From NCBI RefSeq assembly GCF_005047655.1, contig NZ_SUKF01000001.1, positions 1-64,000 on the forward strand: DNA of 64,000 bases. The letters are read 5' to 3'. Shown here piece after piece: positions 46,178 to 61,464 of this stretch (the first letter of the stretch is position 1; each line of letters opens with the position of its first letter). The position numbers and the translations under genes are program-made. The notes under the pieces are model-generated. The model searched no databases. It saw only the letters and a program-made list of their open reading frames with translations, and was not told the DNA's origin. Source of the stretch: Sinimarinibacterium arenosum (lineage in GTDB: Bacteria > Pseudomonadota > Gammaproteobacteria > Nevskiales > Nevskiaceae).

Positions 46178-46828
46178 ATGCTCAAGCTTTACAGCTACTG
46201 GCGCTCGTCGTGCAGCTATCGCGTGCGCATTGCACTGAACCTCAAGGGTCTGGGTTACGAGCTGATTCCGATTCATCTGGCCAAGGATGGCGGCGAGCAG
46301 CATGGCGCGGCGTATCGCGCGCTGAATCCGCAGGCGCGGGTGCCGTTGCTGGTCGACGGCGACTTCGTGCTGAACCAGTCGCAGGCCATTATCGAATACC
46401 TGGAGGTTCGGTATCCGCAACCGGCCTTGCTCAGTGGTGACGCGCGTCAGCAGGCACGCATCCGCGCGTTCTGCCAGACCATCACCGCCGACGTACAGCC
46501 GTTGCAGAATTCCGGCGTACTGAACTATCTGGAGCACACGCTGCAGCTCGATGCCGACGCGCGCACGCGCTGGCTGCAGCACTGGATCACGCGCGGGCTC
46601 GCCGCGCTGGAACAGGAAGTCCAAATGTTGCCGGCATCACCGTTCGTGTTCGGAGGGGTGCCGAGCTGGGCCGATTGCGTGCTGGTGCCGCAGGTGTACT
46701 CGGCACAACGTTTTGGCTGCGATGCATCCCGCTATCCGCGGCTTGCGCACATTGCGGCGCACTGCGAGACGCTGCCGGCGTTTCAGCGCGCGCATCCGGA
46801 GACCCAGCTGGACGCAGTTCCCGCTTAA
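46178..46828 (+). CDS. maiA: Maleylacetoacetate isomerase (zeta-class GST)
   Basis: Glutathione-dependent cis-trans isomerisation of maleylacetoacetate to fumarylacetoacetate. The 216-residue protein carries the zeta-class motif SSCSYRVRIALNLKG near residue 10, NPQARVPLLVDGDFVLNQSQ (glutathione site) and the C-terminal helical domain with PSWADCVLVPQV. Last gene of the operon; its final four bases overlap the convergent thioesterase stop. Confidence 0.95.
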   Translation: MLKLYSYWRSSCSYRVRIALNLKGLGYELIPIHLAKDGGEQHGAAYRALNPQARVPLLVDGDFVLNQSQAIIEYLEVRYPQPALLSGDARQQARIRAFCQTITADVQPLQNSGVLNYLEHTLQLDADARTRWLQHWITRGLAALEQEVQMLPASPFVFGGVPSWADCVLVPQVYSAQRFGCDASRYPRLAHIAAHCETLPAFQRAHPETQLDAVPA

Positions 46829-47355
46829 TCCCCTTGCGCAGGCGTCGGTCTGCGTGCGCGCAGGGCCTTCATTTCGTTGGCGTGCCGCAGACGCAGTTCC
46901 CGCCGCAGCTGCGCTTCTTCGTAGCGATGCTTCTCGATCTGCGTTTCCGGCACCAGCTCGGGCACCGCACGCGGCTGACCTTCGGCATCGACGGCGACGA
47001 AGGTCAGGTAGGCGGCCAGAATCTGGCGTCGATCGCCACCCCCGATTTTCTCGGCTTCAACCAGACAGCCGACTTCCATCGACGTGTTCCATGCGCGGTT
47101 GACCGAGACGTTGAAGATCAGCACGTCACCGCCCTTGGCCGGCGCGATGAAGTGCACCGCATCGACGCTGGCCGTGACGCAGACGCCGCCGGCGTGCCGA
47201 TCCGCGGTGACCGCCGCAAAGCGATCCATCTGCGCCATGATCAAGCCGCCGAACACGGTGTTGTTCGAGTTCAGGTCGTTCGGAAACACCATGTAGACCT
47301 GTTCGCGTACTGCCGAATAGGCGACAGTGCGGGCGGGTGTCGTGGAAGCTTTCAT
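46825..47355 (-). CDS. Acyl-CoA thioesterase, hotdog fold
   Basis: A 176-residue ACOT/YciA-type thioesterase that hydrolyses acyl-CoA. Signature stretches are FPNDLNSNNTVFGGLIMAQM (active site N/D and helix), ASVDAVHFIAPAKGGDVLI and EVGCLVEAEKI. The charged C-terminal tail (EAQLRRELRLRHANEMKALR) is a long helix. It is convergent with maiA and in tandem with the signalling operon upstream, but a 55-base gap and different theme suggest an own promoter. Confidence 0.88.
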   Translation of the reverse strand: MKASTTPARTVAYSAVREQVYMVFPNDLNSNNTVFGGLIMAQMDRFAAVTADRHAGGVCVTASVDAVHFIAPAKGGDVLIFNVSVNRAWNTSMEVGCLVEAEKIGGGDRRQILAAYLTFVAVDAEGQPRAVPELVPETQIEKHRYEEAQLRRELRLRHANEMKALRARRPTPAQGD

Positions 47356-47410: not shown

Positions 47411-48583
47411 TCACGCGGTGCGCGGCAGACGCAGGCTCATCGTGGTGCCCTGGCCGAGCATCGACTCGGCGTGCAGGCTGCCGCCGTGCATCAGCGCAAT
47501 GCGTCGCGCGACGGCCAGGCCCAGCCCCGATCCGGGGAACGCGTCGCTGGTGTGCAGGCGATGAAAGGGTTCGAAAATGCGTTCGATCTGATGCGCGTCG
47601 ATGCCAATGCCCTGGTCGATGAAACGGATCAACCAGCACGCGTCCTCGGCGACGGCTTCGATCCGCAGCGTCGGCGCGTCGCCGGTCTGAAACTTGATGC
47701 CATTCTCGATCAGATTGCGAAACAGCAGCTCCAGCTGCTCGGCATCGCCGTTGACGGTGGGCAACGGTGTCGATTCGACTCGGGCGTTGCGCGCGTCCAG
47801 CATGCTGCGTGCATGAGTCAGCGCCTGTTGCAGCACGGCGTCGAGGGCCACGGGTTCGTTCTTCGCTGCGGCGCGTCCAAGACGTGCGAACTGCAGCAGG
47901 CTGGCGATCAGGTGATGCAACTGGCGTCCGCTATCAAGTACGCCCTGCAGCAGTTCCGCCGAGTCCGGTTCCAGACTCGCGCCGATGCGCTGCTGCAGCA
48001 GCTGGGTGAAGCCGACGATGCCGCGCAATGGTGTCTGCAGATCGTGCGAGGCGACGTAGGCGAAGCGTTCGAGTTCGTGATTGGCCTGCTGCAACTGGCG
48101 TTGCTGCGACTCCAGTTCCTTCACCAGCTTGAACGTGCGCAGCGCAGTCATCACCAGGATGTAGAAACGTTCAAACGTCAGCTCGGTCTTGGTGCGGTAA
48201 TCGTCGATGTCATAACGCTCGACCACCTCCCGCGCCGGCGCCTGACCGGGCTGGCCGGTGCGCAGCACGATGCGCACCGCGCGGTTCATGAGTGTTTCGC
48301 GGATATAGGGCACCAGATCGAGGCCGGCCTGATCCGTCTCCATCACAACATCCAGCAGGATCAGCGCAATGTCGTCGCGTCCCTGCAGGATTGTGCGGGC
48401 TTCGGCCGCGGAGTGGGCACTGATGATATCGATGCGGCGACCGTCATAGCGGCAGGGTTCGACCGCCAGCCGCGTGACCGCATGCACCTCGGGATCGTCG
48501 TCCACCACCAGCACGTGCCAGCCGGGGCCAGAGCTGTCCGGTCCTTCCGGTCCATCTTCAATCAGCAGCAGGGGATCATGCAT
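47411..48583 (-). CDS. Receiver-histidine kinase hybrid
   Basis: A 390-residue soluble protein: receiver domain (Asp28-30 pocket, phosphoacceptor Asp78 in LILLDVVMET) followed by a histidine kinase with His180 in VASHDLQTPLRGIVGFTQLL, the N-box NLIENGIKF, G1 DQGIGID and G2 GSGLGLAVARRIA. After the receiver comes LRTGQPGQAP and RYDIDDYRTKTELT, a segment shared with the DUF3369 gene next door, which shows common ancestry. The likely route is phosphate input to the receiver, then kinase output to an unknown regulator. It is the last gene of the five-gene signalling unit. Confidence 0.9.
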   Translation of the reverse strand: MHDPLLLIEDGPEGPDSSGPGWHVLVVDDDPEVHAVTRLAVEPCRYDGRRIDIISAHSAAEARTILQGRDDIALILLDVVMETDQAGLDLVPYIRETLMNRAVRIVLRTGQPGQAPAREVVERYDIDDYRTKTELTFERFYILVMTALRTFKLVKELESQQRQLQQANHELERFAYVASHDLQTPLRGIVGFTQLLQQRIGASLEPDSAELLQGVLDSGRQLHHLIASLLQFARLGRAAAKNEPVALDAVLQQALTHARSMLDARNARVESTPLPTVNGDAEQLELLFRNLIENGIKFQTGDAPTLRIEAVAEDACWLIRFIDQGIGIDAHQIERIFEPFHRLHTSDAFPGSGLGLAVARRIALMHGGSLHAESMLGQGTTMSLRLPRTA

Positions 48584-48593
48584 GCGGGCGATC

Positions 48594-49547
48594 TTACGCC
48601 GCGCGGCATTGCTGCCGCAGCAGCAGGTGGCGTCGGGCCAGAGACACGTTGCGGCAATACAATTCGATCAACTCGCGGTCCGGCTCGCCGAGCGGCATCT
48701 CCGCCGCCACATAGAACACCCATTCGCCGGAGACAGAATCCACTTGCCGACGCAGGAAATAGTCAGGACCGAACACCATTTCCGGCCCGGTCCGCGAGGC
48801 CTTGATGCGCTGCCACACGGGCGCCGGCAGGACCTTGGTCGCATCCTGTCCCGACAAGCCGGCGTAGCGGCCGGTGCCCGCGATCACCGCCAGCGTGCTG
48901 CCGCTGTCCTCGGCCGCCACGCCGGTTGCATGCAGCATCAGGGCATCGCGGCGCAGGAACAGCAGCGCAATCAGCTGCTCCAGCACGCCTTCGGCAAAGC
49001 GCTCCATCGAATCGACGTCGAACAGCGTTGCGGTGCTTTCGATGACTTTGCGCAGACCCCGGCGGTTGGCATCCAGCGCAGTCAGATCGCGATAGGTCGA
49101 CATCGCGGTAAACACCGTCGTGTATAGCCGTTCGCGTGTCAGCTCGGTCTTGTGACGGTAGTCGTTGATGTCGTAGCGGGTGATGACCTCCAGCTCCGGC
49201 GCCTGCCCTGGCTGTCCAGTGCGCAGGATGATGCGTATAAACGGATTCTTCAGCTCGTTGCGCACGAACTCGACCACCTCGAGTCCGGCCTGATCAGATT
49301 CCATCACCACATCCAGGAGCACCAGCACGATCTCCGGATGCTCGCGCAACATGGTCTTGGCTTCGGCACCCGAGAATGCGTGAAGAAAGTGAAGCCGGCG
49401 ATTCGCGAAGCGCATGCCTTCCAGCGCCAGGCCGGTGACAACGTGAATTTCTGCCTCGTCGTCAACCACCAGCACCGTCCAGGCATCGTCGTCCGCCGGT
49501 GGCGGTGCGGGAACTTCTTCGGCGAACTTCAGGGGCGCTTCGCTCAT
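48594..49547 (-). CDS. DUF3369 response regulator
   Basis: A 317-residue regulator with an N-terminal receiver (Asp29/Asp30 pocket, Asp79 in LVLLDVVMESDQ), the conserved bridge LRTGQPGQAPELEV and RYDINDYRHKTELT, and a C-terminal DUF3369 sensor-like domain (LRKVIESTATLFDVDSMERF, EGVLEQLIALLFL). In other bacteria DUF3369 is followed by HD-GYP, GGDEF or kinase output; here nothing follows, so output must be by protein contact. Its start overlaps the upstream kinase stop by four bases (ATGA). Confidence 0.9.
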   Translation of the reverse strand: MSEAPLKFAEEVPAPPPADDDAWTVLVVDDEAEIHVVTGLALEGMRFANRRLHFLHAFSGAEAKTMLREHPEIVLVLLDVVMESDQAGLEVVEFVRNELKNPFIRIILRTGQPGQAPELEVITRYDINDYRHKTELTRERLYTTVFTAMSTYRDLTALDANRRGLRKVIESTATLFDVDSMERFAEGVLEQLIALLFLRRDALMLHATGVAAEDSGSTLAVIAGTGRYAGLSGQDATKVLPAPVWQRIKASRTGPEMVFGPDYFLRRQVDSVSGEWVFYVAAEMPLGEPDRELIELYCRNVSLARRHLLLRQQCRAA

Positions 49548-51136
49548 GGCTTGCTCTTCAGATGTGCCGGGAAACGGACGGTGAATCGGGTGCCGGCACC
49601 GATCTCACTTGCGGCCTCGATGGTGCCGCCAAGAATCTGCTGAACCAGGTTGTAAACGATATGCAGGCCGAGCCCGCTGCCACCGGAGCCGCGCTTGGTG
49701 GTGAAGAATGGGTCGTAGATGCGCTTGAGGTCCTGTGGCGGGATGCCACTGCCGTTGTCGCTGTAGTGCAACTCGATCCAGTCACCGCTGCGCTGGGCGC
49801 TGATGCGCAGTTCGCCACTGTGTCCGTCGGGAAATGCGTGCAGCAAGGAGTTGCTGACGAAGTTCGTCAGCACCTGCGCCAGTGCGCCTGGATAGCTGTC
49901 GACTTCCAGATCCGGCGGGCACTCGACCACGATGCGGTGACCGGTTTTCTTGGTGCGCGGGGCCAGACTCAGCAGCACTTCGTCGATGTAGTTGCGCAGG
50001 TCAAAGCGGCGACGTTCGCCGCTGGACTGGTCGACTGCAACCTGCTTGAAGCTCTGGATCAGATCTGCAGCGCGCTGCAGATTACGCAGGATGATGTTGG
50101 ACGATTCGCGTGCGACTTCGACGAAGCGCTCCAGGTCCGAACGCCGCAGAGTATCGGTCTTGTACGCCTGCTCAAGATCGCGCGCACGGTCCTGCAGCGT
50201 CGATGCCGCGGTCACGCCTACGCCCACCGGTGTGTTGATTTCGTGCGCAACACCAGCGACCAGTCCACCCAGCGAAGCCAGGCGTTCGCTCTGCACCAGT
50301 TGTGCCTGTGTCTGCTGCAGGCGATCCAGCGCTTCAAGCAGATCCTGGTTGGCGGCGGTCTTTTCGCTGACCTGCTGGCTCAGGGCGTCACGCGCGGTTT
50401 CGATATCGCGGTCACGGATCGCGATCTGATCCAGCATCGAATTGAAGTCGTCAACCAGGCGGCCGACTTCATCCGAGCCCAGTCGACGTGCCCGCAGAGT
50501 GTAATCACCGGATTCCGAAATGCGGCGCGCCACGCCGGCCAGATCGAGGATGGGGCCTGCCAGCGCCGGCTGCATCAGCCAGGCGATGCCCAGACTGACC
50601 GCAAAGCTTGCGGCCAGAATCGCGACGGTGATGCCGACTTGCACCATCAGCGTATGCGTCAGCGGCTGCAGATTGACCTGCACCTGCAACCAGCCAATGC
50701 GATCGCCGTTCTGTTCGACTTCGCGCACCAGACTCAGGCCGCGCAGGTGCTCATGGATGCCGACCTTGGCTGCGGTTGCCGGGCAGGGGCTGACGCCGTT
50801 CTGTAGATACTGCGCGAACAGTGCCGATGCATCGCCGTCCTCGGTGTAAAGGCATGCGCTGTCGACCTCCGGCTTGGAGCGCAGTGCGGACAGCAGCTCC
50901 CGCGCCGCCACGACGTCGCCGAACACCAGCGCTGCGGCCGTGCTGTCCGCGCTGATCTGGGCAACCGATTGCACGTCGCGGATCGCGGTGCTACGTGCCG
51001 AGTTCCACGCATAACTGATCAGGGCAACGCCGGACAGAATCAGACCAACGCTGCTGGACAGTGCCATCAGCAGGGTCAGTTTTCTGCGAATCGGCTGATT
51101 GGAAAACTGCCGCAGAAAGCGGTTACGCGTGAACAC
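49544..51136 (-). CDS. Transmembrane HAMP sensor histidine kinase
   Basis: A 530-residue kinase with two membrane helices (about 20-42 and 165-188) around a periplasmic CHASE8-like sensor (VGLILSG, SADSTAAALVFGD, SKPEVDSACLYTEDG), a HAMP domain (189-243), coiled coil (245-285), His298 in AGVAHEINTPVGVGV and a full ATPase (NFVSNSLLHAF, DNGSGIPPQDL, GGSGLGLHIVYNLV). The sensor resembles that of YfiN-type proteins that pair with YfiR, whose homologue is the gene just upstream (one-base overlap, TAGTG). It starts with GTG. Confidence 0.91.
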   Translation of the reverse strand: MFTRNRFLRQFSNQPIRRKLTLLMALSSSVGLILSGVALISYAWNSARSTAIRDVQSVAQISADSTAAALVFGDVVAARELLSALRSKPEVDSACLYTEDGDASALFAQYLQNGVSPCPATAAKVGIHEHLRGLSLVREVEQNGDRIGWLQVQVNLQPLTHTLMVQVGITVAILAASFAVSLGIAWLMQPALAGPILDLAGVARRISESGDYTLRARRLGSDEVGRLVDDFNSMLDQIAIRDRDIETARDALSQQVSEKTAANQDLLEALDRLQQTQAQLVQSERLASLGGLVAGVAHEINTPVGVGVTAASTLQDRARDLEQAYKTDTLRRSDLERFVEVARESSNIILRNLQRAADLIQSFKQVAVDQSSGERRRFDLRNYIDEVLLSLAPRTKKTGHRIVVECPPDLEVDSYPGALAQVLTNFVSNSLLHAFPDGHSGELRISAQRSGDWIELHYSDNGSGIPPQDLKRIYDPFFTTKRGSGGSGLGLHIVYNLVQQILGGTIEAASEIGAGTRFTVRFPAHLKSKP

Positions 51137-51672
51137 TACAGATTCACCAACTGGGCCAGACTGAGCAGCTTGGAGCTGAGCTGAAGCTGCTCGCGGCTGG
51201 CAGCGCCGGTGTTGACCTCGAAGCGGATCCGGCGTTCGTCCAGATACAGCCGGACCACCCCGCCGGGCTGCGCGGTTGCCGCACTATGCACCGTCAGAAC
51301 ATGGTGTCCGCTGGCCGCGGTCAGCATCTCCTTCAACGAAGTGTCCTCGCCGATATAGGCGATCTGGCAGCGCGCGAGTTCGCTGGCGCTGGCGGGGATA
51401 TGCATCGTCAGTGCATGCGCACCGACGCTCTTGCCCTGGATCGTGTCCCGCACGGTGGACGCAAAGTCGGGTTCGCCGGCGACGCAGATCGTGATCGGGC
51501 TGCTTGGGTCCGGGACTTTGTCCTGCGGCCAGTTGACGAAGCGTGCGAGATTGAACAGGAACGCCGCACGGACCTGGAGCTCCGGCGCCTCCGCCGACTG
51601 CACACGCACCGGTGCCAGCGCGCAGGCGATCGTGACAACCAGTGTCGCGATGAGAGCGCGGTATGCGATCAC
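51136..51672 (-). CDS. YfiR-like (DUF4154) periplasmic protein
   Basis: A 178-residue exported protein with a signal peptide (about 1-26, cleavage VQS-A or nearby) and a YfiR/DUF4154 domain: RAAFLFNLARFVNWP, ITICVAGEPDFASTV, CQIAYIGEDTSLKEML and HVLTVHSAATAQPGGVVRLY. In Pseudomonas YfiR represses the membrane protein YfiN from the periplasm; here its partner is likely the adjacent HAMP kinase. It starts with GTG that overlaps the receptor stop (GTGA), coupling it to the outer-membrane gene. Confidence 0.87.
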   Translation of the reverse strand: MIAYRALIATLVVTIACALAPVRVQSAEAPELQVRAAFLFNLARFVNWPQDKVPDPSSPITICVAGEPDFASTVRDTIQGKSVGAHALTMHIPASASELARCQIAYIGEDTSLKEMLTAASGHHVLTVHSAATAQPGGVVRLYLDERRIRFEVNTGAASREQLQLSSKLLSLAQLVNL

Positions 51673-53669
51673 GGCAGCGTCCAGTCGAGCGTCAGCATCA
51701 GATCGCGTTCAAGCTCCGAGCGATTCGGTGCGTTGCCGAATTCCGCGTGCTGGTCCGACAGCAGATTGTCGCCGACCAGCCCCAGTTCCAGATTCGGGCG
51801 CAGACGCCATGCGGTGCGCAGCGACAGCTCGGTATACGCAGGAACGTCGTAGGCATCGAGTTGCCCGACATAGCGCAGGAAGCTGTTCACGGTCCAGTCC
51901 GGATGCGGGTCCCAGCTCAGGCGCAGTCCTGCCTGATGTTGCGGGCTGGTGCCTTCCCATTGCGCCGCAGTCTGGGCGTCGGTGCCGCCGTGATAGGGAT
52001 CAACATTCAGGTTCAGATTGGAATACGAAGCCTGTATGCGGACGTCCTCCGCGACCTGCCAGTTCAGGCTCAGCTCTCCGCCGAAGCTCTTGCCCTCAAG
52101 CAGGTTGGCGTAGCGCCCGACCGGCGTATCGCGTTCGGTGCTCTTGAGTCGGCTGTAGCGGTTGGCGAACAGCGCCAGATCCATCGACACCGCTTGACTC
52201 ACGGTCCAGCGCAGGCCGCCGTCCAGCGCTAGCAGCTGTTCAGCATCCAGATTGGGATTGCCGACCCGGATCAGCCCCGGCCCGCAGATACCCGGAATGC
52301 CGTCGGGCGGTGGGCAATACAGGGCGACGTCAGAGTCGAGACGATTCGGCGTGCGCACGGCACGCGCCAGCGAACTCCAGACAAACACGTCCGCAGCGGC
52401 GTGCCAGCCCAGACGCAGGTTCGGTTGATACTCGAACCCGGTGAAATCGTTGTGCTCGAACTTGCTGCCGAGGGTCAGCACCGTCGTGGGTGACAGCGTG
52501 ATCTGATCCTGTATGAACGCGCTGTAGGTCCGCAGCGTGCGATCTGATGGGTCCCAGACCACGGCATAGTCGGGCGCGGCGCCGGTCTGGTCGGACGAGG
52601 TCCGGAAGCCGGCGCCGTACAGCAGGTACTGGCTCGACGTCAGCGCACGACCCTGCTGCATTTCCAGGCTAAGCGTGTCGCGGGTTTCAGCGTAGGTCGT
52701 CGGCTGGCGCCGTTCGCTGTGGTCGTAATACATCTGCGCGGAGGTCTGCACGCCGTGACTGCCGCTGTGCGTCCAGTGTGCGCCCAGGTTGCCGCCGTTG
52801 ACGTCGAGGCCGACTGCAGCCGCGCTGGCGGCGCCGTTGGCGCGAAACTCGCCGCCATAGTAGTCGCCGGAAATCGTCAACTGATCCTGCGTGCTGACAT
52901 TCCAGTCGCTGCGAAAGCCGAACTGCTGGTGACGTCCGCCGTCCTCGACTTCGGTGTTGTCGGCGCGACGGCTGCGATCGATCTCCTTGGCGATGCCGTA
53001 CAGGCGCAGCCAGGCCTGATCGCCGAGCCGGGTGCCGCTGCGTACGCCAACCGCACCACGCTGTTCCAGACCGCCCGAAGCGATGATCCGGGTGTCCTGC
53101 GTCTGTTCGGAGGACCGGGTGACGATGTTGATCACGCCGTTGACCGCATTGGCGCCCCACAGCGCCGCACCGGGTCCGCGAATCACTTCAATGCGATCAA
53201 TGTCCGGCAGAAACGTGTCGAGGCTGTCCCAGAACACGCCCGAGAACAGCGGCGTATACACGCTGCGGCCGTCGAGCAGGATTTCCAGCTTGTCCGCCGA
53301 GCTGCTGTTGAAGCCGCGTGCGCTGACCGCATAGCCCTGTGCGCTGGTCCGGGCGACATCCAGGCCGGGCACCATGCGCAGCGCCTCGGCGATGCTGCGG
53401 ACACCGGAACGACGGATTTCTTCACCGGTGAGCACCGTGATCGCGGCCGCCGCGTCGGACAGGGGTTCGGCGCGTTTGGAGACCGACGTGACTTCGATGT
53501 TGAGCAGATCTTCCAGCGACAGCTGGGTCAGGTCGCCCGATGCTGCGGTCTGCAGCGGAAGCGCGTCCGCAGAGGCGACGCCGGGCGCCGCGATCATGGC
53601 CGCCGCGAGGGCCGCGAACGTCCCTCGCGAAAAGGCCGACGGCCAATGGCCAAGAGGCATGTCGAACAC
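51669..53669 (-). CDS. TonB-dependent outer-membrane receptor
   Basis: A 666-residue receptor with signal peptide (to about residue 34), the DLTQLSLEDLLNIEVTSVSK lead typical of this subgroup, a plug domain (AAAITVLTGEEIRRSGVRSI, RGFNSSSADKLEILLDGRSV, IEVIRGPGAALWGANAVNGV) and a 22-strand barrel ending in a C-terminal aromatic-poor strand (MLTLDWTLP). Substrate is unknown. It leads a signalling operon rather than an uptake one, with YfiR, kinase and regulators following in overlap; it may act as surface sensor. Start GTG 53669 or ATG 53660; GGAG lies suitably before the GTG. Confidence 0.92.
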   Translation of the reverse strand: MFDMPLGHWPSAFSRGTFAALAAAMIAAPGVASADALPLQTAASGDLTQLSLEDLLNIEVTSVSKRAEPLSDAAAAITVLTGEEIRRSGVRSIAEALRMVPGLDVARTSAQGYAVSARGFNSSSADKLEILLDGRSVYTPLFSGVFWDSLDTFLPDIDRIEVIRGPGAALWGANAVNGVINIVTRSSEQTQDTRIIASGGLEQRGAVGVRSGTRLGDQAWLRLYGIAKEIDRSRRADNTEVEDGGRHQQFGFRSDWNVSTQDQLTISGDYYGGEFRANGAASAAAVGLDVNGGNLGAHWTHSGSHGVQTSAQMYYDHSERRQPTTYAETRDTLSLEMQQGRALTSSQYLLYGAGFRTSSDQTGAAPDYAVVWDPSDRTLRTYSAFIQDQITLSPTTVLTLGSKFEHNDFTGFEYQPNLRLGWHAAADVFVWSSLARAVRTPNRLDSDVALYCPPPDGIPGICGPGLIRVGNPNLDAEQLLALDGGLRWTVSQAVSMDLALFANRYSRLKSTERDTPVGRYANLLEGKSFGGELSLNWQVAEDVRIQASYSNLNLNVDPYHGGTDAQTAAQWEGTSPQHQAGLRLSWDPHPDWTVNSFLRYVGQLDAYDVPAYTELSLRTAWRLRPNLELGLVGDNLLSDQHAEFGNAPNRSELERDLMLTLDWTLP

Positions 53670-54060
53670 GGACCACTCCGGTGGGAAAGCGTTATGTCCA
53701 CTCTAACAGCCTGTCTGCACAGCACATTAGATAAATCATCGCGGCGGGCTCCGCTTGTCGATCAGATGCCACCGACTGGCCCTGTGACGGGATTGGGGGT
53801 CCGTGCCGGTGCCTGCAGGCGCTCGCTTGGCACCGCTCTGATGGGGTGCCGACAACGGAGCCTGCGGAGGGTGTTGAGCCGAGCCGGCTGCAGCCGGGAC
53901 GTCGGCGCCAACGCATGCCTCCACGCTGGAATGAGCGGCATCAGCGCCGCCGCTTTGCCGCACCGGCCATACCAACGGTTGGGGTGGGGGCTGGGTCGCG
54001 CGCCTAGCCTTGCTGCAATGCGCTGTAGCGGGGGCGCTGAACGCGAGAGGAGAACAAGAC
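53670..54060. other. Intergenic region before the desaturase gene
   Basis: No convincing coding sequence on either strand. It should hold divergent promoters for the receptor operon and the desaturase. A perfect 11-base palindrome CCAACGGTTGG lies at 53972-53982, next to GGCCATACCAA, a string that partly recurs upstream of the aldehyde dehydrogenase (61207-61220). Confidence 0.5.
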
Positions 54061-54942
54061 GTGAATACTTATCTGTCAGAGCCTGTCAGGAATCAGGCGG
54101 AAACCGATTTTCGGGAGCTTGTCCGCACGCCGCGCCTTGCGTGGCCGACCGCGATCCTGTTTGTCGTGTGCATGTTGGCGATCGGCACTGTGAGCTATCT
54201 GGGTCTGACCGGAGCGCTCCCCCTGTGGGCCTGCACGATCCTGAATGGACTGTCGACCTATTTCCTGTTCAGTGTCGTCCACGACGCGTCGCATGGAGCG
54301 ATTTCACGGAACAAAGCTCTCAATGATGCCTTCGGGCATATCGGAATGATCTTCTTTGGTCCGCTGGCGCCCTTCAATCTGGCGCGCTGGATTCACATGC
54401 AGCATCACCGCTTCACCAATGATCCGGTCAAGGATCCGGATGGGTTCGGGCACAAGCTCGACTTCCTGACGCCGCTGCGATGGATCAGCTTTGACTACTT
54501 CTACACGATGTTCTTCCTGCGCCAGGCAGGTCCCATGCGGAAGAAGTTCATGGGCCGACTGGTGCTGCAGATCTGCCTTGTGGTGACCGCGATCGCCGTG
54601 TGCACGTACTTCGGATACGGCCTTGAAATGCTGATGCTGTGGTTGCTGCCGACCCGGATCAGTTCGGCATTGTTTGTGGCGGTGTTCATCTGCATGCCGC
54701 ATGCGCCCTTTTCCAAGACTTCGCAGGAAGATGAGTACCAGGCGTCCAATATCCGCGCCGGCTGGGAATGGCTGCTGACCCCGCTGATGACCTACCAGAA
54801 CTATCACCTGGTGCATCACCTGTATCCCACCGCGCCGTTCTATCGGATGCTGAAGATCTGGAACGCCCGCCTGGATGAACATCTGAGCCGGAATCCGTAC
54901 TTCGTGCGAACGTTTTCGATCGGGCGCCCCGTGAGCCGATAG
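54061..54942 (+). CDS. Membrane di-iron fatty acid desaturase-like enzyme
   Basis: A 293-residue membrane enzyme of the fatty acid desaturase superfamily. The three iron-binding histidine boxes are HDASH (74-78), HMQHH (112-116) and HLVHH (249-253), with about four membrane helices between. These differ from AlkB-type alkane hydroxylases (which have HELGH-like boxes and eight histidines), so a desaturase, hydroxylase or decarboxylase such as UndB-like activity is possible. GTG 54061 with GAGAGGAG upstream is chosen. A rubredoxin gene follows 25 bases later and probably supplies electrons. Confidence 0.83.
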   Translation: MNTYLSEPVRNQAETDFRELVRTPRLAWPTAILFVVCMLAIGTVSYLGLTGALPLWACTILNGLSTYFLFSVVHDASHGAISRNKALNDAFGHIGMIFFGPLAPFNLARWIHMQHHRFTNDPVKDPDGFGHKLDFLTPLRWISFDYFYTMFFLRQAGPMRKKFMGRLVLQICLVVTAIAVCTYFGYGLEMLMLWLLPTRISSALFVAVFICMPHAPFSKTSQEDEYQASNIRAGWEWLLTPLMTYQNYHLVHHLYPTAPFYRMLKIWNARLDEHLSRNPYFVRTFSIGRPVSR

Positions 54943-55126: not shown

Positions 55127-55306
55127 GCGCGCATGGATTTCTGACTGATCGAACGTGTGACAGTGGCGCGATCACGGCGCTCGCGCTGGGTCGAATCGGC
55201 CTGCTCCGGGGTCCGGAAATCGGACCATGGCTGCACTGATGCGCTCGAAGCGGTTGAGACGGGAACTGACGTAGACTCTCGGCGAGCGAGTGTCACGGCC
55301 AGACCA

Positions 55307-58021
55307 ATGTGCGCAGTCCAACGTGGGCGGTTCGAGCCGCCCAATTTTTCGTTTCCATTGGTGCAGACGCCTGCGCTCACGGCATTGACGGCGGCCGAGC
55401 TGCTGCCGGCGAAAGTCATCGTCGTCACCGCACCGACGGGTTACGGCAAGACCGTTCTGCAGACCGCGCTGTTTCGTCATGTGCGTTCGGGGAGCGGGCG
55501 CGCGATCTGGGTGGGACTGGACGAAAGAGACCAGAGCACCGAACGTGTGCTCAGCATTCTTGAGCAGGCCCTGCTGGAAGAGCAGGATGCCCTGAATCCC
55601 GCTGCCGCTGTGCATCAGAGCGACGAAGCGGTGGAGGCGCGGATTGAGGCATTGCTCGACACGATCGCCGAGTTGAAGGGGCCAACGGTTCTTTTCATCG
55701 ATAACCTCAGCTACTGCGAAGACGACACCTTGCGGACCCTGCTCGACGCTCTGGCGTTGCGCACGGCGGACACCCTGTACCTGGTCTTTGCCGGCGGGCG
55801 TGAGCCGCCGATGAACGTGGCGCGACTGAAACTGCAAGGCCAGCTGCGGACGATCACGTTCTCCGATCTGTCGCTGCATCTGGCCGAGACCCGCAGCCTG
55901 CTCGGCGACGACTTGTGTGAGCGCCTCGGGGATGACGGTGTGAACGCCGTGCTGCGGCAGAGCGAGGGCTGGCCGGCGGCGGTGCGTCTGATGCAGATTG
56001 TCCTGAGTGCATCCACCGATCCGATCGAAGCGCTGAAGACATTCTCCGGATCGGATGTCGATCTCGCCGAGATGCTCAATCGTCAGGTCCTGGCCGATTT
56101 TCCTGAGACGATTCGACGGTTCCTGCTGGAAACGGCGCATCTGCGCACCTTCTGCGTCGCGCTGTGCCGGCAGGTTACCGGAGACGAAAGCGCGGTAGAT
56201 CACGTCACCTATCTGCTGCGGCACAACGTGTTTGTCATTCCACTGGACCGCAATCGTTCGTGGTACCGACTGCATGGCCTGTTCCGGGAATTTCTGGTCG
56301 CCGAGGCCCAGCGCACACTGACCCCGCAGCGCCTGCACGAAGTGCAGGTCCGCGCGGCGGAATGGTGTGAACAGGCAGGGTATTGGTCCGATGCCATCGA
56401 CTATGCGCTGGCGGCCCCCGCGCCGGATGTCGCAGCAGACATCCTTGAACGCGTCGCGCCGAGATTCGTCAGAGATCGCGGCGATTTGCATCGCTTTATC
56501 GCCTGGGTGGAGCGGCTGCGCGCTGCAGGAGCCACCGTCCATCGCGAGACCGAGTTCTGGTACGTGTGGGCGCTGGTGTTCCATCGCCGATACGCGTTCG
56601 CGCGTCAGCAGCTTGAGCCGCTGGCGGCGCGGATCGCCACCGAAGCTGCGAACCACGCCGATGCACGCAGCGCCGAAATGCTGCGGCGCCTGGAGATCAT
56701 TCGAGTCACCGTCGATATCTATGTCGATCGCCTGGAGGAAGCTGAAATCCTCGGCCGACACTGGCTCGCCTCGCGCGGAAATGACGATCCTTTCGATGTG
56801 GCGACGGTTGCCTCCGCCTGTGGCACGAGCCGGACCGCTGCGTTCGACATCGCGGGAGCGCGCGAGTTTTTTGCGATTGCGCAGCAGAGCATTGCACAAG
56901 CCCAGAGTGACTATGGCGAGAGCTGGGTGGGCACCTTGTCGGCGGCGAATTCCATTCTGGAAGGTGACTTTGCGCTGGCCTACGAGCGCCTCGAGCGCAC
57001 GCTGGAGCGTGTACGTCAGGATCTGGGCGACAGTGCCGGCATGACGGGAACCGTCGCTTTTGTCGCCGCGCGATGTGCGGTCGAAGTTGGCGAAGATGCC
57101 AAGGCGCGTGAGTGGCTCGAACTCGGGATGCGGTGGGCGCAGAACTACGGCGTGGTCGACACCGTTGTGCACGGGCTCGACGCAGCGCTCAAGCTGTGGG
57201 CCTCGACGCTCGGGTATGCCGTTTCAATCACGCAGATGCGCGAGATCGTTGACAGCTACCCACCCAGGGCGGGGTTCGTGTTTTCGTGCCTGCTGACCCA
57301 GAGACTGGTGCGCCTGGGGCGCGTCGATGATGCGTTGCTTGAGTTCAGCAAGATTGCAGGCCCTGGGCCCGATGACGAGCCGCCGCTCTCACGTGTGCCC
57401 ATGGCGCGCTTTGCCCTCGTGCAAACACGCATCGAGCTGGATATCGCCACGGGGCACCTGCGTCAGGCCGAGGCCCGCATCGCGGAGGAGACCAAGCTTG
57501 CGCGTACTGATGGACGTTGGGGTCATCTGGTCGATCTCGCGCTCGCGGAGATGGCCGTCAGTCTGTGCAGCCAGAACCACGCAGCTGCGGCACGGCATCT
57601 GACCCGTGCGATTACCTGTGCGGCCAAGCGCCGATATATCCGTCCGTTTCGTGATCGAACCGAATTGATTGCGGGGTTGGTCAACCAGACCAAACCGCAG
57701 AGCTGGGGCTTTGCACTGGACGAAGAGCGCGCGTTCTTTCGGGAAGTCTGCCGGATGCTGCCGATCGCCAACAGTCATCTGCTCGAGCAGTTGGAGCGTC
57801 TGGATGTGGAGGCACAGTTGCTGGAGACGCCGACGCCGCGCGAACTGGAGCTGTTGTCGCTGATTGAAGCGGGATTGTCGAATCAGCAGTTGGCTGATCG
57901 TTTGTCTGTGTCGGTGGCGACGGTGAAATGGCACTTGTACAACCTGTACGCCAAGCTCGGTGTGTCGAGTCGCGCCGCGGCGCTGGCCAAGGGACGCGCG
58001 CTGAATCTGCTTTCGCGCTGA
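55307..58021 (+). CDS. MalT/AlkS-type LuxR-family regulator
   Basis: A 904-residue signal-transduction ATPase regulator. The P-loop APTGYGKT is at 42-49, followed by NB-ARC/STAND segments (TVLFIDNLSYCEDDTL; EGWPAAVRLMQIVL), TPR-like sensor repeats through the middle, and a LuxR helix-turn-helix in the last 65 residues (TPRELELLSLIEAGLSNQQL, LSVSVATVKWHLYNLYAKLG). MalT, AlkS and AcoK are of this form. ATG 55307 is chosen because the family core starts right after it. It is the likely regulator of the desaturase/rubredoxin and ligase/aldehyde dehydrogenase genes around it. Confidence 0.9.
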   Translation: MCAVQRGRFEPPNFSFPLVQTPALTALTAAELLPAKVIVVTAPTGYGKTVLQTALFRHVRSGSGRAIWVGLDERDQSTERVLSILEQALLEEQDALNPAAAVHQSDEAVEARIEALLDTIAELKGPTVLFIDNLSYCEDDTLRTLLDALALRTADTLYLVFAGGREPPMNVARLKLQGQLRTITFSDLSLHLAETRSLLGDDLCERLGDDGVNAVLRQSEGWPAAVRLMQIVLSASTDPIEALKTFSGSDVDLAEMLNRQVLADFPETIRRFLLETAHLRTFCVALCRQVTGDESAVDHVTYLLRHNVFVIPLDRNRSWYRLHGLFREFLVAEAQRTLTPQRLHEVQVRAAEWCEQAGYWSDAIDYALAAPAPDVAADILERVAPRFVRDRGDLHRFIAWVERLRAAGATVHRETEFWYVWALVFHRRYAFARQQLEPLAARIATEAANHADARSAEMLRRLEIIRVTVDIYVDRLEEAEILGRHWLASRGNDDPFDVATVASACGTSRTAAFDIAGAREFFAIAQQSIAQAQSDYGESWVGTLSAANSILEGDFALAYERLERTLERVRQDLGDSAGMTGTVAFVAARCAVEVGEDAKAREWLELGMRWAQNYGVVDTVVHGLDAALKLWASTLGYAVSITQMREIVDSYPPRAGFVFSCLLTQRLVRLGRVDDALLEFSKIAGPGPDDEPPLSRVPMARFALVQTRIELDIATGHLRQAEARIAEETKLARTDGRWGHLVDLALAEMAVSLCSQNHAAAARHLTRAITCAAKRRYIRPFRDRTELIAGLVNQTKPQSWGFALDEERAFFREVCRMLPIANSHLLEQLERLDVEAQLLETPTPRELELLSLIEAGLSNQQLADRLSVSVATVKWHLYNLYAKLGVSSRAAALAKGRALNLLSR

Positions 58022-61387: not shown

Positions 61388-61464
61388 TGGTGGGCCCAGC
61401 AGGACTTGAACCTGCAACCAAAAGATTATGAGTCTTCTGCTCTAACCAATTGAGCTATAGGCCC
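61388..61464 (-). tRNA. tRNA with CAU anticodon, probably Ile2
   Basis: A 77-base tRNA with encoded CCA. Acceptor GGGCCTA / TGGGCCC, D-arm GCTC...GAGC, anticodon loop CTCATAA, T-arm GCAGG-TTCAAGT-CCTGC. C4-G69 and C5-G68 and the overall likeness to ileX point to the lysidine-modified isoleucine tRNA rather than elongator Met. The anticodon stem has one G-U pair. It stands alone, 243 bases upstream of the aldehyde dehydrogenase start on the same strand. Confidence 0.9.

Follow-up and report, generated by a model that had tools for sequence, protein, structure and literature searches.

A TonB-dependent receptor, a YfiR-like protein and a CHASE8 histidine kinase in one operon of Sinimarinibacterium arenosum: a candidate trans-envelope signalling module

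Cell-surface signalling of the FecA–FecR–FecI type combines an STN domain on the outer-membrane receptor with an adjacent FecR and extracytoplasmic function sigma factor. The closest described relatives of the locus reported here are YfiBNR of Pseudomonas aeruginosa and the divergent YfiNR systems, in which the DUF4154 periplasmic protein YfiR adjoins a CHASE8-HAMP membrane protein; in YfiBNR the latter is YfiN, with its GGDEF output, and the outer-membrane place is held by the lipoprotein YfiB (PMC3375315, PMC4887326). Malone et al. 2012 presented YfiR–YfiN as a modular core with GGDEF, GGDEF-EAL, HPT, kinase or methyl-accepting chemotaxis protein (MCP) outputs (PMC3375315), and HmsCDE of Yersinia pestis is a similar tripartite system (PMC5550408). 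According to that paper yfiB is missing from almost all of the more divergent YfiNR operons (PMC3375315), which raises the question of how these are fed from the outer membrane; the string ‘tonb’ is absent from its main text. Here we analyse the first 64,000 nucleotides of contig NZ_SUKF01000001.1 of Sinimarinibacterium arenosum (order Nevskiales; assembly GCF_005047655.1), hereafter the window, in which a TonB-dependent receptor (TBDR) gene opens an operon that continues with a YfiR-like protein, a CHASE8 histidine kinase and two receiver proteins. We give an even chance to the reading that this operon encodes a YfiR-type trans-envelope module, with the TBDR in the place of YfiB and a two-component kinase replacing the GGDEF output of YfiN.

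Composition of the operon

Five minus-strand genes, read from the open reading frames (ORFs) of the window, span 47411-53669, with the TBDR gene first:

51669..53669, minus strand: TBDR of the NCBIfam TOL_0244 family, 666 aa; proposed outer-membrane input
51136..51672, minus strand: YfiR/HmsC-like periplasmic protein (DUF4154), 178 aa; proposed kinase repressor
49544..51136, minus strand: CHASE8-HAMP transmembrane histidine kinase with the phosphorylation box HEINTPVG, 530 aa
48594..49547, minus strand: REC-DUF3369, a receiver (REC) protein with a predicted GAF fold and without HD-GYP, 317 aa
47411..48583, minus strand: REC-kinase (receiver-HisKA-HATPase, receiver first), 390 aa; proposed phospho-gated second kinase

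Successive genes overlap by 4 bases (TBDR/YfiR), 1 base (YfiR/kinase) and 4 bases (kinase/REC-DUF3369), and a 10-base gap separates REC-DUF3369 from REC-kinase. These junctions and the five gene identities had been read in the same way in the initial annotation, made from the letters alone, and the Pfam and NCBIfam matches bear the identities out. The receptor matches Plug (PF07715, 82.3 bits) and the beta-barrel (PF00593, 105.4 bits) and passes NF053590 (TOL_0244 receptor; 657.1 bits, cut-off 645). YfiR matches DUF4154 (PF13689, 124.9 bits) and lies just under the cut-off of NF053591 (TOL_0243 YfiR-like; 124.2 against 125). The kinase matches CHASE8 (PF17152, 59.8 bits), HAMP (PF00672, 36.3 bits) and HATPase (PF02518, 93.3 bits), with HisKA (PF00512) at 25.4 bits, slightly below its cut-off of 26.9, and scores 176.3 against the cut-off of 194 for NF053592 (‘sensor histidine kinase, YfiR-like protein-associated’). 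The NCBIfam models are the best matches of YfiR and the kinase even though both fall below the cut-offs; they provide names only, and REC-DUF3369 and REC-kinase match none of them.

As that annotation had claimed, no DNA-binding, GGDEF, EAL or HD-GYP domain is found in the five proteins by Pfam or among the NCBIfam matches listed. The operon would share with FecA–FecR–FecI an inward signal from an outer-membrane receptor, but in the operon and the three genes next to it Pfam matches neither an STN signalling domain, on the TBDR or elsewhere, nor FecR nor a sigma factor. Nor does the operon encode a YfiB lipoprotein, the TBDR standing there instead; the rest of the genome was not searched for YfiB. 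The window YfiR matches the solved YfiR structure 4zhu (E 2e-6) in an alignment that pairs cysteines with Cys71 and Cys110; both are invariant in 10 of 10 aligned sequences (the window and nine relatives), whereas the positions aligned with Cys145 and Cys152 of the P. aeruginosa protein hold no cysteine.

Recurrence and the receptor–YfiR pair

The operon is real and recurrent. We examined all 29 YfiR places in an order set of 85 genomes, and a class sample of 274 genomes, 40 of them with an NF053591 match; of the 69 matches of the class scan, 2 fall within the order set and a further 8, none scoring above 80.5 bits, were not fetched, so that 59 of 67 places outside the order were classified. 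A further scan of named genomes was anchored on REC-DUF3369 and covers the best 80 of 558 relatives. At some loci Pfam served to check the kind of partner; the other labels come from our own profiles, made from the window proteins and their relatives.

Of the 85 order genomes, 17 carry DUF4154 (29 places) and 18 carry DUF3369 (31 places); the two are found together in 13 genomes where 3.6 are expected (hypergeometric p 2e-8, uncorrected for relatedness). A same-strand DUF3369 gene follows YfiR at 10 of the 29 places, YfiR being linked to DUF3369 at ten order loci, the window included, and all five genes are present at six (the window and, in five further genomes, L065, L071, L073, L079 and L080). 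Outside the order, the anchored scan finds the five-gene set in Spongiibacteraceae bacterium UBA5047 (L142) and Litorivivens lipolytica (L143), and a gammaproteobacterial bin (L206) carries YfiR, a CHASE8 kinase and a REC-DUF3369 with an HD domain, with no TBDR recognised. Co-occurrence of the receptor, DUF4154 and DUF3369 genes had been named in the initial annotation as the check on which its reading could fail; the set does recur in other genomes.

In the order, 27 of the 29 YfiR places have a TBDR immediately upstream, on the same strand and no more than 1 kb away; at the 59 class places it is upstream at 29, downstream at 7 and not recognised at 23. As a control, the class loci contain 329 other ORFs, and only 5 of them have a TBDR upstream at that distance. 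All four YfiR matches in a plasmid collection (Indioceanicola, two Sphingobium and Paraburkholderia) are receptor-YfiR-CHASE8 sets, with 72-78% of the query covered; the partners are hybrid kinases in three, one of them by our own profile only, and a GGDEF-EAL protein in one. Because the TBDR adjoins YfiR whatever the output (kinase, GGDEF-EAL or MCP), in alpha-, beta- and gammaproteobacteria, a functional pair is suggested. The position of a TBDR in the place of YfiB looks new; we found no publication in the open-access literature that links TonB-dependent receptors to YfiR. Separately, in a Nitrospirae bin (L173:7736-11527) a TBDR stands directly upstream of a REC-DUF3369-HD-GYP gene, and since the gap is only ~110 bases, no YfiR lies between them.

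Kinase, receivers and outputs

The initial annotation had set the histidine kinase beside YfiR against the GGDEF protein that YfiR normally controls, but by our counts a kinase partner is common. At the 88 YfiR places of order and class the partner is a kinase at 48, GGDEF-EAL at 13, GGDEF at 2, an MCP at 2 and a kinase-GGDEF-EAL fusion at 1, with none complete at 22 (places rather than genes are counted; the two YfiR places of L088 share one kinase). The order contributes 18 CHASE8 kinases, 5 CHASE8-GGDEF-EAL proteins, 1 CHASE8-MCP and 5 places with no complete partner on that strand, four of which have a contig end no more than 540 bases away; the 59 class places hold 30 kinases, the 1 fusion, 8 GGDEF-EAL, 2 GGDEF, 1 MCP and 17 with none found. 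A kinase output of YfiR modules was in fact published in 2012 (PMC3375315), and NCBIfam already names the receptor, YfiR and the kinase, the last as NF053592.

The CHASE8 kinases of these loci can be typed by their phosphorylation box. We compared 53 of them, 18 with an HE[IV]N box and 35 others (27 HE-x-R, 8 without a box that our pattern recognised); four CHASE8-profile kinases that are not YfiR partners (L072, L078, L125 and L206) were excluded, and L222 and L226, whose contigs start inside the kinase and so leave YfiR out of view, were included. A DUF3369-type receiver is present in the locus, that is, anywhere in the fetched stretch on either strand, for 17 of the 18 HE[IV]N kinases and 0 of the 35 others (kinship uncorrected). 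When five loci fetched through DUF3369 are left out, the receiver accompanies 12 of 13 HE[IV]N kinases and still none of the 35 others (p 2e-10, also uncorrected). Among the best 80 of 558 REC-DUF3369 loci, drawn from several phyla, HE[IV]NTP is found in 32 of the 34 kinases encoded just upstream, so that 32 of the 80 loci resemble the window in this respect; the 53-kinase and the 80-locus sets share L142, L143 and L206. The correlation of box and receiver favours phosphotransfer from HE[IV]N kinases to DUF3369-type receivers, and the pairing of such a kinase, encoded beside YfiR, with a DUF3369-type receiver looks new.

REC-DUF3369, the sole DUF3369 match in its genome, aligns with PF11849 (119.5 bits) over residues 145-313 and ends shortly thereafter, at residue 317. 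Its receiver scores 22.2 bits with PF00072, and that of REC-kinase 29.6 bits, both under the cut-off of 30.2; REC-kinase also matches HisKA (PF00512, 53.5 bits) and HATPase (PF02518, 88.7 bits). The residues that we take to serve as acidic pair, acceptor Asp, Thr and Lys are invariant in both receivers, among 10 aligned sequences for REC-DUF3369 and 8 for REC-kinase. An AlphaFold2 model of the two-domain REC-DUF3369 (predicted local distance difference test, pLDDT, 74.0; predicted template modelling score, pTM, 0.56) matches 6oaq (E 4.4e-11), which we take to be a sensor built of receiver and GAF domains; the root-mean-square deviation is near 16 A, so the likeness is one of domains and not of their arrangement. 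Modelled alone, from 67 sequences including 59 of the best 80 relatives, DUF3369 reaches pLDDT 84.8 and pTM 0.75, and its best fold match is a GAF domain of DevS (2vjw; Z 13.2 over 122 residues, 2.8 A), with GAF or PAS-GAF structures making up most of the 50 matches listed. DUF3369 is therefore predicted to have a GAF fold, which does not show a ligand for it.

The window protein shares its receiver and DUF3369 with regulators that add HD-GYP, among them VCA0210 of Vibrio cholerae, which is active as a cyclic di-GMP (c-di-GMP) phosphodiesterase (PMC4212101). It differs from them in lacking HD-GYP and in the setting of its kinase, whose gene stands with those for YfiR and a receptor. Among the best 80 of 558 relatives an HD-GYP motif is present at 68 loci and the solo form at 9. 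Solo forms are scattered over our receiver tree, built from 89 rows and 122 columns, whose support is weak, with 44 of its 86 forks open. Set against a single origin of REC-kinase, this tree needs 6 changes, of which the starred branches force 1. At L223, from 6631 onwards, a kinase precedes a solo REC-DUF3369, and neither a receptor nor YfiR was recognised; L224 and L225 resemble it but begin at contig starts, with the upstream side out of view.

The description of the operon in the initial annotation as a pathway without a known end holds for the window itself, whereas relatives show likely ends in HD-GYP, in GGDEF-EAL and in a sixth GGDEF and EAL gene. This gene follows the five-gene set in L142 (12103-13341) and L143 (12088-13209), its GGDEF signature not intact in either. 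At 12 of the 30 class kinase places the 7 kb that follow YfiR hold a GGDEF or EAL gene on its strand, and c-di-GMP enzymes often follow kinases without the HE[IV]N box; by Pfam, L133 and L074 (the latter in the order) carry REC-PAS-GGDEF-EAL and L110 carries REC-GGDEF-EAL. That the relatives end in c-di-GMP machinery (HD-GYP, GGDEF-EAL) which the window operon lacks also looks new.

A 1759-aa YfiR-adjacent protein (L095:2976-8255) combines CHASE8 and HAMP with a kinase, an adenylate/guanylate cyclase domain, three receivers and four Hpt stretches, and is a YfiR partner whose output may be a cyclic nucleotide. Another of 1664 aa (L124:3793-8787) holds CHASE8, kinase, receivers, Hpt, PAS, GGDEF and EAL, an entire relay in one chain. 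CHASE8-HAMP-MCP chemoreceptors lie directly downstream of TBDR and YfiR at L075:5333-7132 and L087:2855-4390. Just beyond the window (G000:C1:64974-65450), ~11 kb from the operon, there is a GGDEF domain, 1 of 31 GGDEF matches in the genome.

On the far side of REC-kinase, a minus-strand thioesterase gene (46825-47355) begins 55 bases past its end; it is excluded from the operon because it is retained in relatives of the genus that lack the cassette. The other 10 genomes of the genus that were examined give no match to DUF3369 or DUF4154. Nine of the 10 keep the thioesterase, beside a glutathione S-transferase in 8 of these 9 stretches, in none of which the cassette proteins find a match at E 1e-15. 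Recent transfer was rejected on composition, there being no GC contrast, and so was a riboswitch upstream of the receptor, the only gathering-level Rfam match in the window being a tRNA (61391-61464). A promoter scan found none where 1.1 are expected, and terminator-like sites number 6, against 4.9 in shuffles.

Proposed signal path and alternatives

We envision the following path, built on the domains, gene overlaps, recurrence, kinase–receiver match and predicted GAF fold found in the sequence. By analogy with YfiBNR, YfiR would at rest bind the periplasmic CHASE8 domain and lock the kinase in one state. An occupied receptor, perhaps energised by TonB, would then draw YfiR to itself or alter its shape, as in the release of YfiR at the outer membrane in YfiBNR, and a CHASE8-HAMP switch would permit autophosphorylation of the kinase at its box. 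Where YfiN carries a GGDEF output, the window protein carries HisKA and HATPase, and the phosphoryl group would pass to the receivers of both cytosolic partners, which would belong to one unusual, DUF3369-type class. REC-DUF3369, its receiver joined through a long helix to the GAF-fold domain, would most likely integrate a cytosolic ligand or serve, in a phosphate-dependent way, for docking or as a sink. It lacks the c-di-GMP phosphodiesterase domain HD-GYP that the regulators akin to it carry. REC-kinase would be a receiver-gated second kinase, presumably signalling to a regulator encoded elsewhere. Our analysis supports the surface-to-cytosol reading of the initial annotation.

Several observations weigh against it. 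The receptor is not obligatory, since 23 of the 59 class places have no recognised adjacent TBDR, and among these only L103 and L128 start less than 1 kb upstream of YfiR. Sisters can do without either REC-DUF3369 or REC-kinase: in the order, REC-DUF3369 occurs without REC-kinase in L078, L081, L082 and L083; in G274 (L067) REC-kinase lies on the opposite strand and the genome has no DUF3369; and in L068 REC-kinase directly follows the kinase, after which the contig ends. The kinase–receiver match is confounded by kinship, because HE[IV]N kinases cluster in one order, which holds 15 of the 18, including all 13 not fetched through DUF3369, with just 5 kinases of other type for comparison within it (receiver in 0 of 5). 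Some of the 35 other-kinase contigs stop soon after the kinase, and the HE[IV]N kinase of L232 has no DUF3369-type receiver. A Foldseek search with the DUF3369 model gave no PDB match under E 0.001 (best 2.2e-3). Finally, the P. aeruginosa YfiR pocket of L166, I169, V176, P178 and L181, which accommodates F57 of YfiB (PMC4887326), is for the most part not kept: the window has T, A, L, S and L at these positions in one weak pairwise alignment (30 bits), although an altered pocket would fit a module without YfiB.

A first alternative is that the receptor is a nutrient transporter merely co-transcribed with the other genes, a target of the pathway and not its input, with YfiR sensing redox state or a periplasmic molecule alone. 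It draws on the conserved equivalents of Cys71 and Cys110, on the behaviour of P. aeruginosa YfiR as a YfiB-independent redox device that binds small molecules (PMC4887326), on the class places without a recognised TBDR and on the absence of a signalling domain from the Pfam matches of the receptor. The adjacency of TBDR and YfiR across outputs and proteobacterial groups suggests a functional pair instead, and we regard this alternative as rather unlikely.

A second possibility makes the receptor an OmpS-type sensor of alkanes or another hydrophobic ligand, with YfiR and the CHASE8 kinase relaying inward. The NCBIfam receptor family is named after TOL_0244, which is sevenfold higher on n-C28 than on Tween 80 and is 40.3% similar to OmpS, the alkane detector of Alcanivorax dieselolei (PMC6304351; OmpS is also treated in PMC9788540 and PMC5174103). 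The numbers in the model names suggest that the TOL_0243 (YfiR-like) and TOL_0244 genes are adjacent. NYxEHYG, which we take to be an AlkB-type motif, occurs in 72 of the 85 order genomes, with two instances in the window's genome; alkane hydroxylases hence look near universal in the order, and the motif is uninformative there (15 of 17 YfiR genomes, p 1.0). In the class, genomes with both an NF053591 YfiR and the motif number 5 against 4.1 expected (p 0.58), that is, no association. The likeness to OmpS is one of family, through TOL_0244, with no genome-level association with the AlkB motif. Two genes, typed by Pfam and NCBIfam, lie beside the cassette and divergent from it:

54010-54942, divergent from the cassette: desaturase-type gene (PF00487)
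55157-58021, divergent from the cassette: MalT-type LuxR regulator

In alkane degraders, AlkS is a regulator of the MalT type. Relatives of the desaturase and the MalT-like regulator are also adjacent in G318 (L249), a genome without the cassette, so the pair proves nothing on the ligand. We consider alkane sensing improbable.

Decay of the pathway, with REC-DUF3369 a phosphodiesterase regulator that has lost its HD-GYP, would fit the 68 of 80 loci with that motif against 9 solo and the scatter of solo forms on the tree, yet the aligned solo forms retain the receiver residues and stand in operons of several genera, and all five window frames are open; we consider it improbable as well. A chance run of two-component genes was rejected on the recurrence across genomes.

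The trans-envelope module could also be part of something wider. Tentatively, and as less likely than not, we propose that TBDR, YfiR and CHASE8 form a general surface-to-cytosol wire parallel to FecA–FecR, into which any output may be plugged (kinase, diguanylate cyclase, phosphodiesterase pair, chemoreceptor and perhaps class III cyclase), and which would supply the outer-membrane input of many YfiB-less YfiNR systems; OmpS-type receptors may in this way reach chemotaxis and gene control. With the GAF prediction DUF3369 acquires a predicted fold, and its role would likely be that of a sensor or dimer domain. The YfiR-adjacent TBDR offers a testable answer to the question of how YfiB-less YfiNR operons receive their outer-membrane input and, if the answer is true, there would be a second route from a surface receptor to the cytosol besides FecA–FecR, one that could drive kinases, c-di-GMP enzymes or chemoreceptors.

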